A stretch of 39,710 nt of DNA. Source: an uncultured Clostridia bacterium (GTDB lineage: Bacteria; Bacillota; Clostridia; Christensenellales; UBA1242). The DNA lies in assembly GCA_944350275.1 (NCBI GenBank), contig CALVOK010000045.1:1-39710 (forward strand). The letters are read 5' to 3'. The notes below the pieces were generated by a model that saw only the letters and a program-made list of their open reading frames with translations, was not told the origin of the DNA and did not search any database. Position 1 is the stretch's first letter. Every line of letters begins with the position of its first letter. Position numbers and translations under genes: made by a program. Shown in pieces: positions 36,873-39,710 of the stretch.

Positions 36873-37508
36873 TTAACTCCTTTTAACTGCCTCACGTATT
36901 GTTACCACCGAACCCTTAGGTCCAGGAATGCAACCCTTCACGAGAAGAATATTTCTTTCAGTGTCCACCTTAACAATGTCAAGGTTTTGAATGGTAACCC
37001 TCTCAACACCATAGTGACCAGGCATATTCTTGTTTTTGAATACTCTTGATGGGGTTGAGTTTGCACTCATAGAGCCGACTTCTCTATGAACAGGTCCTGT
37101 ACCGTGAGTCATTTTAAGTCTGTGTTGGTTCCATCTTTGGATAACACCAGTAAAACCACGACCACGAGTAGTTCCTGTAACGTCTACTTTGTCACCCTCA
37201 GCAAAGATATCTGCTTTGATTTCTTGTCCGAGTGAATAATCTGTGCAGTTGTCAAATTTGAATTCTTTGAGTATTCTATAAGTTTCAACACCTGCTTTTT
37301 TGAATGCACCACTTCTAGCCTTGTTAACTCTGTGTGCTTTTTGTTTGTCGAATGCGACAACAAGTGCATCATAACTGTCTTTTTCGCTGTTCTTAACTTG
37401 AACAACAGGGCAAGGACCAGCCTCAACAACTGTAACTGGGATAACCAAACCTTCTGGAGTTAAGACTTGAGTCATTCCAAGTTTCTTGCCAATAATTGCT
37501 TTTTTCAT
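36873..37508 (-). CDS. rplC: 50S ribosomal protein L3
   Basis: Its extended loop reaches the peptidyl transferase centre. The 211 aa show KKAIIGKKLGMTQVLTPEG, the HGTGPVHREVGSMSANSTPS signature and FKNKNMPGHYG. GGAGG precedes the ATG. Confidence 0.98.
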   Translation of the reverse strand: MKKAIIGKKLGMTQVLTPEGLVIPVTVVEAGPCPVVQVKNSEKDSYDALVVAFDKQKAHRVNKARSGAFKKAGVETYRILKEFKFDNCTDYSLGQEIKADIFAEGDKVDVTGTTRGRGFTGVIQRWNQHRLKMTHGTGPVHREVGSMSANSTPSRVFKNKNMPGHYGVERVTIQNLDIVKVDTERNILLVKGCIPGPKGSVVTIREAVKRS

Positions 37509-37526
37509 TTTTCTGTCTTCCTCCTA

Positions 37527-37835
37527 TTATAGTTTGATTTTTATATCCACACCTGCTGGAAGGTCAATCTTCATAAGCGCATCAACCGCCTTAGCATTTG
37601 GTGAATATATGTCAATAAGTCTTTTGTGAGTTCTTGACTCAAATTGTTCACGACTGTCTTTGTCTTTGTGTGGTGAACGAATAACAGTGATCACTTCCCT
37701 ATCAGTTGGAAGTGGAATAGGTCCTGCAACTTTTGCACCGAACTTCTCGGCAGTATCAATGATTCTCTTGCAAGCATCATCAATAAGACCATGTTCGAAG
37801 GACTTTAATTTGATTCTAATAACTTGTGTTGCCAT
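37527..37835 (-). CDS. rpsJ: 30S ribosomal protein S10
   Basis: First gene of the superoperon; S10 sits in the 30S head and, as NusE, joins antitermination complexes. The 102 aa are canonical: [40 protein letters not shown] and the closing [16 protein letters not shown] precedes the ATG by about 11 nt. It is preceded by a long structured leader and a consensus promoter. Confidence 0.98.
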
Positions 37836-37989
37836 TAATTTTTAAACCTCCTGTAATAGCAAATCTAACCAAATCACATATTCATTTTTTAAGATACACT
37901 CTAGTTATTTCTAAATGTGAAATTTTGAGAATTTTTACTCCAAACTTTCAAATCGCAGTAAAACGAGCAAGGTTATTCGGTACTCCTTT

Positions 37990-38040
37990 AAAGTAACTCT
38001 AACACCCTCAAACTGTAAGGAGACAAGCAGTGCAAGGCTC
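37990..38040 (-). repeat. S10 leader repeat, copy 2 (rpsJ-proximal)
   Basis: This 51-nt unit matches 38057-38107 at 47 of 51 positions with a period of 67 nt. Its CAGTTTGAGGGTG (38003-38015) is complementary over 13 nt to 38196-38208. Confidence 0.9.
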
Positions 38041-38056
38041 TCGATTTGAAACACTT

Positions 38057-38107
38057 AAAGTAACCCAACCACCCTCAAACTGTAAAGAGACAAGCAGTGC
38101 AAGGCTC
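38057..38107 (-). repeat. S10 leader repeat, copy 1
   Basis: Its CAGTTTGAGGGTGG (38069-38082) is complementary over 14 nt to 38196-38209; extended to 23 nt (38069-38091 with 38187-38209), 21 positions pair. Confidence 0.9.
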
Positions 38108-38186
38108 GGGGTTCGCTCGGGGATAGGAGTTTAGTAAGCCTAAATGACTATTCTCGAGCGGACCACAGTAAACACAGCAATGCGAA

Positions 38187-38209
38187 GTCTATTTGCAGTT
38201 TGAGGGTGG
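38187..38209 (-). repeat. Inverted partner of the S10 leader repeats
   Basis: In the transcript this segment comes first and can pair with either downstream repeat. On the plus strand it reads as a diverged third copy of the repeat, including the neighbouring GCAaTGC block. Confidence 0.85.
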
Positions 38210-38365
38210 TACACTTATCCGCGTGTATCATGCTGCTACTCATTAAAAAATGTGATTTTTCGGTTAGTCGCCCGCAGTCTTGCCACGGACTTGTCCGCGT
38301 AAATTCTCTTTGATTGCCGGTAATCAAAGTAACCTTACACATCAACCCATATTCACAGCAATAAT

Positions 38366-38394
38366 ACTATACCAAATAAAAACAGATTTGTCAA
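38366..38394 (-). promoter_or_regulatory. Promoter of the S10-spc-alpha superoperon
   Basis: TTGACA (38389-38394), 17-nt spacer, TATAGT (38366-38371) on the minus strand. The expected start is about 38358. Confidence 0.85.
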
Positions 38395-38601
38395 CGATTT
38401 TTCAAAAGAAATTTAAAAAAGTTTTCTTTGGTTATAATTTAATAATTTTTAAGACTTTGCAATGTGACTTGAAGATTGATAATATTGTTGCTTATCAAAA
38501 TTTTAAAAGACAAACACAACTTGTAATATTGCATTTTAATTTGTATGTCATATTTTAATAGGTTTAGATTTAATATATATAATTTATATATAATATAACA
38601 G
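38395..38601. other. AT-rich intergenic stretch
   Basis: I see no gene or clear signal between the superoperon promoter and the upstream terminator. Confidence 0.5.
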
Positions 38602-38630
38602 AAAAAACTAGACTTTTCAATCTAGTTTTT
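38602..38630 (-). terminator. Terminator of the DUF6273-like gene
   Basis: AAAACTAGA (38604-38612) pairs TCTAGTTTT (38621-38629), with a T-run on the minus strand. It separates this gene from the superoperon. Confidence 0.88.
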
Positions 38631-38671
38631 ATGCTTTTTAAATTAGAAGTGTTTAAACTTTCTTTATTTCC

Positions 38672-38769
38672 CTCTCCGTACTACTTTTCCTTAAGTCCTG
38701 TTTTGGAGAGAGACAGACTGCTGGAGCAATCTGTGAATTTTAGGAGAAAGACGATTTCAAATTTTCTCC
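38672..38769 (-). other. Three hairpins in the 3' UTR of the DUF6273-like gene
   Basis: In transcript order: GGAGAAA/TTTCTCC (38743-38749 with 38763-38769), a 10-bp ACAGATTGCT/AGCAGTCTGT helix with a CC turn (38713-38734), and CTCTCC/GGAGAG (38672-38677 with 38705-38710). They lie between the stop codon and the terminator. Confidence 0.55.
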
Positions 38770-38784
38770 AAGTTTTTTCGAATA

Positions 38785-39710
38785 TCAAAGTTCATCAACA
38801 GAAAATTTGAAAGCTGCTCGCACCGCACGATTGTATGCGGTGACACTAAAAGTACGGAGAGAGCCTGACGTAGAAACATAATACGCATCATAACTAAAAG
38901 ACGAACTAGGTGAACGGAGCCAATAGTAATCTCCCCACTTTCTATCTGTATCACTACTTGTTGTGGCATTCCCGCCCAATAAGGTGTAGGCTTCATAATA
39001 TGATAAGAGCCAGAATTTATCTGTATCTTCTCTACTATACTTTATCGTTGCTCCTGTCCAATCATCTGGTGAACCCTTTGGAAAATCTACATCCTGTGGA
39101 TTTGTTGTTGAATCTGTCATATCTGTATATAAATCACCCAGTGTTCTGCCTATTATGTCTGTATATATGATATCATTATCTGGGTCTATATGTAGGTCTG
39201 TGAACATATTTGATTGATAACTTGAATTTTTTGATGGCGAGTATACTGTTCCTGCGTCTGTTGATTTGCTAGTAAAACTCTTACTTACAAGTTCTTCAAT
39301 GTTCATATATTGTCTTACTGTGCTTGTTGAATAATCGTTGGCATCTATATCTGTCCAGCCATTTAATTGATGTTTGTATGGTGATGCATTTAAATAATCA
39401 TTGTTCCATGAACAATATAATCCACCTACATTTGCGCTCCTGAATGCACTTGTATATGTCTCCAATATAAAGTATCCATTGCCTGTTGGTCTTGTATTTG
39501 GGTCAAAGGCAGCATAGTGTTGCCCTTCGGCAAGTACTACCTCTGTATTCTCTGCCCCAGCAACATATGCTGTTGTCTCTTCAGCAAAGTACCTCCAACG
39601 TAAATATTCACTTTCACGTTTACCTTCAGCGTTGTCTGATGTGGTTGAGTATGTTCCCATTTCAACATACCAATAGCCCTCTTCTGTATATTGACTTACT
39701 TCGCCCTCGG
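38785..39710 (-). CDS. DUF6273-like surface protein, C-terminal part (runs off the window)
   Basis: 307 codons are visible; the frame stays open past base 39710, so the ATG at 39660 is internal. The C-terminal half fits DUF6273: FWLLSYYEAYTLLGG, DYYWLRSPSS and the closing NRAVRAAFKF, with the WLRSP and VR.AF marks. Upstream is Tyr/Asn/Ser/Thr-rich, as in secreted clostridial surface proteins. The signal peptide must lie outside the window. The function is unknown. Confidence 0.75.
   Translation of the reverse strand, partial: EGEVSQYTEEGYWYVEMGTYSTTSDNAEGKRESEYLRWRYFAEETTAYVAGAENTEVVLAEGQHYAAFDPNTRPTGNGYFILETYTSAFRSANVGGLYCSWNNDYLNASPYKHQLNGWTDIDANDYSTSTVRQYMNIEELVSKSFTSKSTDAGTVYSPSKNSSYQSNMFTDLHIDPDNDIIYTDIIGRTLGDLYTDMTDSTTNPQDVDFPKGSPDDWTGATIKYSREDTDKFWLLSYYEAYTLLGGNATTSSDTDRKWGDYYWLRSPSSSFSYDAYYVSTSGSLRTFSVTAYNRAVRAAFKFSVDEL

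Follow-up and report, generated by a model that had tools for sequence, protein, structure and literature searches.

A leader of the S10 operon has been reported in the Firmicutes with numerous examples from Clostridia (PMC7247131, accessible text), and Rfam holds an S10-Clostridia leader family (RF03136). Several kinds of dispersed intergenic sequence have also been described in bacteria. According to the accessible text of the respective sources, BOX elements of Streptococcus pneumoniae are modular, dispersed, transcribed and strongly folded intergenic repeats with variable middles (PMC3049150), GTAG- and CGTC-tagged REP/BIME sequences are palindromes scattered outside genes, in which the unpaired letters are conserved and the stems vary (PMC3733652), and intergenic multicopy sequences, some of them palindromic, occur in Geobacter and Pelobacter (PMC2700814, PMC2996986, PMC3543383).

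The window considered here is the whole stretch of 39,710 nt that was analysed, from an uncultured Clostridia bacterium. Taken as a whole, its S10 locus is probably best explained as an ordinary S10-type leader that has retained a dispersed repeat, the unit of which would form a sealed arm. Like RF03136, the leader lies before rpsJ and has two hairpins in the same order, with conserved segments that match between the two; it differs in an additional long-range helix and a ACACGCGG hairpin and, in five species, in an insert.

With regard to the repeat itself, the element family is, like BOX by description, modular, dispersed, folded and intergenic, with middle parts that vary (long forms of the element occur), whereas its stop-codon seat and its tip are not described for BOX in the accessible text (PMC3049150). 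In common with REP/BIME it is a scattered palindrome whose unpaired letters are conserved and whose stem varies, but its unit, at about 105-160 nt, exceeds the 20-40 bp of REP sequences. The alignments of the element (19 copies; four S10 units) showed no fixed end of the GTAG or CGTC type, and the word 'Firmicutes' was not found in the searchable text of PMC3733652. Terminal inverted repeats, as required of MITEs (review PMC10969869, accessible text), are present in the element, and one class of copies, with a CGCGACC-type left arm, has both these and flanking direct repeats; unlike in MITEs, the internal letters are conserved over the order and the direct repeats are 14-26 nt long. No parent insertion sequence or transposase sharing the ends was detected, three solo-end regions (L166-L168) looking like remnants, and Y1_Tnp does not track copy number among 16 carrier and 16 non-carrier genomes; a MITE with a parent insertion sequence was set aside on these grounds. 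In kind, the family may be said to resemble the REP, BOX and ERIC palindromes.

The S10 operon leader of the window

The original prediction, made from the letters of the window, placed a consensus promoter and a leader of roughly 520 nt ahead of rpsJ, and both are present. The promoter (minus strand, 38394-38366; 11 of 12 matches) also carries TG ahead of its second hexamer, and the leader is about 525 nt long given the rpsJ start at 37835 (Table 1). A real fold had been expected as well, and that of the window leader is indeed better than 100 of 100 dinucleotide shuffles (z -3.76). The GC content, said to rise only here, is raised over the insert described below (0.465 and 0.490 in the two 200-base windows covering 38000-38299, vs 0.175-0.40 in neighbouring windows within 37800-38599), but "only" was too strong, as coding windows reach 0.455. 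Similarly, both halves of a proposed CAAATCG/CGATTTG closing stem occur in the window, but by eye the pair was not seen in four insert-carrying relatives. A terminator scan of 37400-39000 returned a single weak terminator-like site, with 0.9 expected by chance, and an attenuator reading of the leader was rejected on this result.

Table 1. Features of the S10 operon leader in the window, arranged from the promoter towards rpsJ
Feature	Position	Strand	Basis
S10 operon promoter (TTGACA, 17 nt, TATAGT, extended -10)	38366..38394	-	11/12 matches
S10 operon leader, transcribed extent	37836..38360	-	5' end inferred from promoter
Leader core: hairpin (AGGUUAC / GAGAAUUU sides), second hairpin, CUAACC (38262-38267)	38261..38358	-	RNAalifold on 25 relatives and pair counts
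ACACGCGG..AGUGU hairpin, just 5' of the insert	38208..38229	-	Seen in sequence
Insert unit 1, palindromic element, 143 nt	38068..38210	-	Outer helix arms 38187-38210 and 38068-38091
Nearly invariant element tip (GUCAUUUAGGcuUACUAAACUCC)	38126..38148	-	19-copy alignment
CGAGCCUUG, invariant in 19 aligned copies	38100..38108	-	
Second 3'-arm copy, the alternative partner of the original prediction	37988..38040	-	Partial duplication
Probable second-unit remnant (CCUUGCUCGUUUUACUGCGAUUUGAAAG)	37944..37972	-	By-eye alignment; like unit 2 of G043 and the G069 unit
GGUUAG (37865-37870) and ACAG (37851-37854), closing the leader beside the ribosome-binding site	37851..37870	-	RNAalifold, pair counts
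rpsJ (ribosomal protein S10)	37527..37835	-	

The rpsJ gene was searched for in 31 genomes and found in 28, comprising 17 of the genus (the window included) and 11 from other families of the order. The element motif or insert is absent from the S10 leader in all 16 of the other genus loci first fetched, and a promoter-like site lies 244-344 nt before rpsJ in these 16 loci vs 559 nt in the window. RNAalifold on the leaders of 25 relatives yielded two hairpins together with a long-range helix (CUAACC/GGUUAG) and a closing helix (CUGU/ACAG) that adjoins the ribosome-binding site. In this 25-leader alignment, 97.4% of the cells of the core are paired and both sides are changed in 19 of 36 pairs; the core has 92 two-sided cells vs 22.6 ± 6.0 after shuffling, and far fewer at every slid register. 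In addition, a ACACACGG-type hairpin motif or a variant of it is found in the leaders of 10 of the 11 loci from other families.

The leader had been thought to match no known ribosomal leader, a view that the comparison with Rfam does not support. Positions 1-81 of 81 of RF03136 aligned at window 38268-38353, directly upstream of rpsJ, and the core has the position and the two-hairpin layout of this family at a score of 16.4 bits, which is under the gathering cut-off of 35.1 bits. RF03136 gave no match at E <= 0.5 among 20 loci (17 of the genus) and matched 3 of 12 loci of a wider group with 29.3, 33.8, and 35.7 bits. In our reading, the core in the window is related to the S10-Clostridia leader but divergent, and the cut-off leaves it outside the family. 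Such a core would most likely be bound by L4, which is encoded in the operon and which we take to be the ligand, and this binding may exert feedback on translation of the operon, as in other S10 leaders. What looked like a unique ribosomal leader could in this way be accounted for by a known kind of leader and a retained repeat.

Beyond the promoter, window 38785-39708 (minus strand) holds the C-terminal part of an ORF that extends past the window edge. In G043, a similar ORF precedes rpsJ (L068), and the window's own genome has a comparable stretch at another place (L005).

The insert and the clade that carries it

The insert, about 280 nt long (38210 to about 37930), is located in the loop preceding the ribosome-binding-site helix. 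Its first unit is matched by both models of the element used in this work, namely the earlier model R1 (38084-38188, E 4e-23) and R2, which was built on 103 copies (E 1.4e-23). Window 38125-38180 has five relatives elsewhere in its own genome, each within a hairpin of about 160 nt that is flanked by two copies of a short sequence; for four of the five, this short sequence is, by eye, a terminator-type hairpin. The direct repeats of the leader, previously given as 51 nt, are present as copies of 53 nt (38055-38107 and 37988-38040), 92% alike and spaced by 67, and the 5' arm was rightly seen to be complementary to both: 38187-38210 pairs with 38068-38091 over 24 nt at 92%, and 38187-38217 with 37994-38024 over 31 nt at 81%. 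The repeats are not a matter of chance, because the first belongs to an element with five relatives in the same genome; the first is the 3' part of the dispersed element, and the second is its partial duplicate.

A search of 100 rpsJ loci with R2 gave six matches, five of which lie between promoter and rpsJ and one (L099) upstream of the promoter. The insert carriers are the window species, G043 (with two units), G066, G085, and G069, a number that is not a rate, given that four of the five loci were fetched as carriers and that several of the others represent one species twice. For a FastTree phylogeny of S10 and L3, 51 loci were offered and 47 used, four lacking one gene, after which identical rows were dropped. 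The five carriers form one clade with L086, the support values read, 0.929 and 0.922, being those of two pairs within it. The leader of L086 has no insert and its genome has no element match, so a loss must be assumed within the clade. Among the four orthologous first units of the insert, 169 of 172 pair cells are kept and 13 of 43 pairs are changed on both sides. At this short range the loops are overall not better kept than the stems, because 58 of the 86 paired columns are invariant, as are 20 of the 43 unpaired ones.

The following course of events is proposed. In the ancestor of this small clade, a unit of the dispersed hairpin would have arrived in the loop closed by the long-range helix of the leader, where it could fold on itself through its own terminal helix as a sealed arm and leave the core and the ribosome-binding-site helix intact. 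The insert may have been tolerated, and was perhaps useful, because the unit folds alone in the loop in this manner. It would then have been retained by descent while many of its stem pairs were swapped for other pairs, and the extra 3' arm of the window species would stem from a local duplication. With five species that carry the insert and one close species that does not, this clade offers a natural experiment.

A dispersed family of folded elements

In an alignment of 19 copies of the element, the tip (GUCAUUUAGG..ACUAAACUCC) is nearly invariant, CGAGCCUUG is invariant, and both sides are changed in 16 of the 17 pairs of the stem under the tip. Over the whole structure of this alignment, 64 two-sided cells were counted vs 21.9 ± 3.9 after shuffling; the pair-type count was not above the shuffles, 82 of 500 of which reached it. 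For 77 copies aligned to the model, the corresponding values are 520 vs 177.8 ± 10.4, in an alignment that was made to the model's structure and hence favours it. The outer helix varies among copies, yet its arms pair better on average with their own partners than when swapped. In 74 order copies, pairing with the own arm averages -19.0 kcal/mol and pairing with a swapped one -10.4 kcal/mol (the own partner being better than all 20 swaps in 32); in 106 genus copies the means are -11.8 and -7.8 kcal/mol (better than all 20 in 30).

Rfam 15 contains no family that matches over the element in the window insert, in 18 carrier loci (E <= 0.5) or in nine phylum loci (E <= 0.1), and no description of the hairpin element was found in the literature searched, supplements excepted. 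Matches to R1 occur in 40 of 112 genus genomes and 77 of 396 genomes of an order sample (both at E <= 1e-3), and in 3 of 391 genomes of a class sample (E <= 1e-4), namely the window's own genome, one of the order and one outside it. R2 matches 161 of the 396 order-sample genomes (55 of 142 genera, no more than 10 candidates being scored in each genome), 29 of 398 genomes of a phylum sample, including the window's own, and 10 of 20 genomes that were located by way of named MAG contigs; all these counts come from models of short calibration that were searched partly in their own training genomes. Ten chosen carriers have 6 to 65 copies each by R2 (up to 150 candidates scored). Because the near-fixed tip sits over a changing stem in 55 of the 142 genera sampled, the pattern suggests that the folded element may be recognised by something, be it a transposase, the ribosome, a nuclease, or RNA polymerase. 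The nine phylum loci that were read retain portions of the tip and the 3' motif, and these copies may be like the multicopy intergenic sequences of Geobacter and Pelobacter.

Variant forms were also seen. Long forms of about 370 nt (L055, L064, L169-L171) have extra inverted repeats in the arms, the tip and the ends being unchanged. Tandem arrays of units occur in G043, G071, G105, and G067 (L063 1490-1890, L179 505-920, L286, and L218): G043 and G071 have three tandem units between rpsG and fusA at a spacing of about 140-153 nt, G105 has three tandem units, and G067 has short units without the middle hairpin.

The seat of the copies beside genes was counted with mechanically called ORFs throughout. 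The genus set had 162 matches, 11 of which were left out (five already counted, three short tandem fragments, one cut piece, and two weak reverse-strand matches), so that 151 copies were classed. The set from outside the genus had 77 matches, reduced by two already-counted places to 75 copies, which include L342 from another order of the class, and L321 and L322 twice, from two other genera of the same family. Of these 75 copies, 60 have a sense ORF upstream, nine an antisense ORF, and six none. Among the 60 with a sense ORF, 46 start within 20 nt of its stop, two of them overlapping the ORF; at 14 of the 46 the distance is 1 nt, with the stop codon within the element's own first letters, so that the short distance is partly built in. 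In the genus set, the upstream ORF is sense in 111 and antisense in 24. Under a null in which copies fall uniformly within each gap, and with ORFs of at least 80 aa, the stop-codon seat was observed in 45 of 57 copies of the order set vs 13.4 ± 2.5 expected, and in 26 of 102 of the genus set vs 8.9 ± 2.8 expected. Within the order, copies are seated most often at the stop codon of a sense gene, either immediately behind it or on it. Such a preference does not emerge from the nine phylum loci, where the upstream ORF is sense in four and antisense in five, and within 25 nt in one. Thus far without an Rfam match, a large family of folded elements at stop codons is thereby brought to light, and we think that the element may serve chiefly to give mRNAs a stable structure at the ends of genes.

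Of ten upstream ORFs that were tested, eight match named families (queA, secY, rpsI, rpsQ, prfA, pyruvate kinase, a MATE transporter, and, below the cut-off, a thioredoxin-reductase-like family), and two match none. The flanking genes are varied and many copies lie by unrelated genes, on which account a gene-bound regulon was set aside. Copies scattered at unrelated sites, which the original prediction had named as a sign of a dispersed repeat, do occur for this insert. In G257, three ORFs (at L332, L360, and L368) end in SDGV* right at the element, as if it gave unrelated genes their last codons and their stop. At L339, L371, and L385, which belong to three families (f6, f32, f25), the element lies at the stop of a queA or queA-like ORF, L339 alone having been checked against NCBIfam.

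The CGCGACC-type left arm is found in 42 of the 151 genus copies. Exact flanking repeats of at least 14 nt on both sides, tandem copies also counting, are present in 22 of these 42 and in 21 of the other 109, and the start lies within 20 nt after a sense stop codon in none of the 42 and in 31 of the 109. Past mobility of the element is what we infer. Copies of the CGCGACC class are seen between two copies of a hairpin that resembles the terminator of the upstream gene (L003, L002, L005, L007, L055, L170, and L173), as if they inserted at the terminator hairpin and duplicated about 19-26 nt. At L171 and L005, the loop of the flanking hairpin is the reverse complement of that across the element, suggesting an inversion of the element between the flanking hairpins.

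Alternative readings of the insert

A more far-reaching proposal, which is possible but doubtful, is that the element represents an undescribed class of structured RNA, found in much of one Clostridia order and thin beyond it, that docks at stop codons, its target being the termination of translation, the 3' end of the mRNA, or RNA polymerase. The copy in the S10 leader would, if this is true, be a recruited regulatory domain that controls ribosome synthesis.

It is unlikely that the insert is a second regulatory domain whose tip and CGAGCCUUG bind a ribosomal protein, a translation factor, or RNA polymerase, with the copies in translation operons forming a regulon. Such a role would agree with the nearly invariant tip over a changing stem, with the S10 copy kept in five species, and with copies located in the S10 leader, between rpsL and rpsG or rpsG and fusA, before rpsM, after rpoA, rpmG, and rplT (these gene names being assigned by eye), and after rpsI, rpsQ, secY, and prfA. 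However, many copies lie beside unrelated genes, those by rplT and others are antisense, and the element has been lost in L086.

The insert might also be inert selfish DNA, in which the palindrome is kept as a folded DNA strand for a transposase or for repair and not as RNA. This is very unlikely in view of the stop-codon seat and the sense bias of the upstream ORFs (60 vs 9 outside the genus, 111 vs 24 within it), even though near-copies of the element are dispersed, exact repeats of at least 14 nt stand on both sides of 22 of the 42 CGCGACC-class copies, and tagged-end REP hairpins provide a precedent (PMC3733652, accessible text). Y1 transposases, present in 6 of the 16 carrier genomes and in 1 of the 16 non-carriers, are moreover absent from G119 despite its 28 copies.

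The switch originally proposed as a new two-state sensor, in which the 5' arm would sense a ribosomal protein or the growth state through its choice between copy 1 and copy 2, is hardly credible and was rejected on conservation (a strong second arm in two of five species) and on fold energy, the known-class layout of the core, the dispersed copies of the insert and the terminator scan (one site, 0.9 expected) also speaking against it. In the window and in G066 both 3' arms do fit the 5' arm of their own species, and the isolated 5' arm has nearly equal partners (-17.4 and -16.1 kcal/mol in the window, -16.7 and -13.4 kcal/mol in G066). A second site of like strength is, however, absent from G043 (-18.7, next -5.9 kcal/mol) and G085 (-22.5, next -6.4 kcal/mol), and in G069 the 5' arm has two weak partners only (-10.9 and -9.7 kcal/mol). 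In the whole window leader, the minimum of -154.0 kcal/mol contains the copy 1 pairing, and forcing copy 2 gives -142.7, which is 11.3 kcal/mol worse; copy 1 is also closer to the 5' arm and is transcribed earlier. Covariation, proposed at the outset as a check, was found for the core as well as the insert, but the fold it supports is the proximal one. With the retained dispersed repeat as the preferred explanation, the second 3'-arm copy would be a local duplication that probably arose independently in two lineages, and the copy spacing differs, 67 vs 96 nt, as independent duplications would give.
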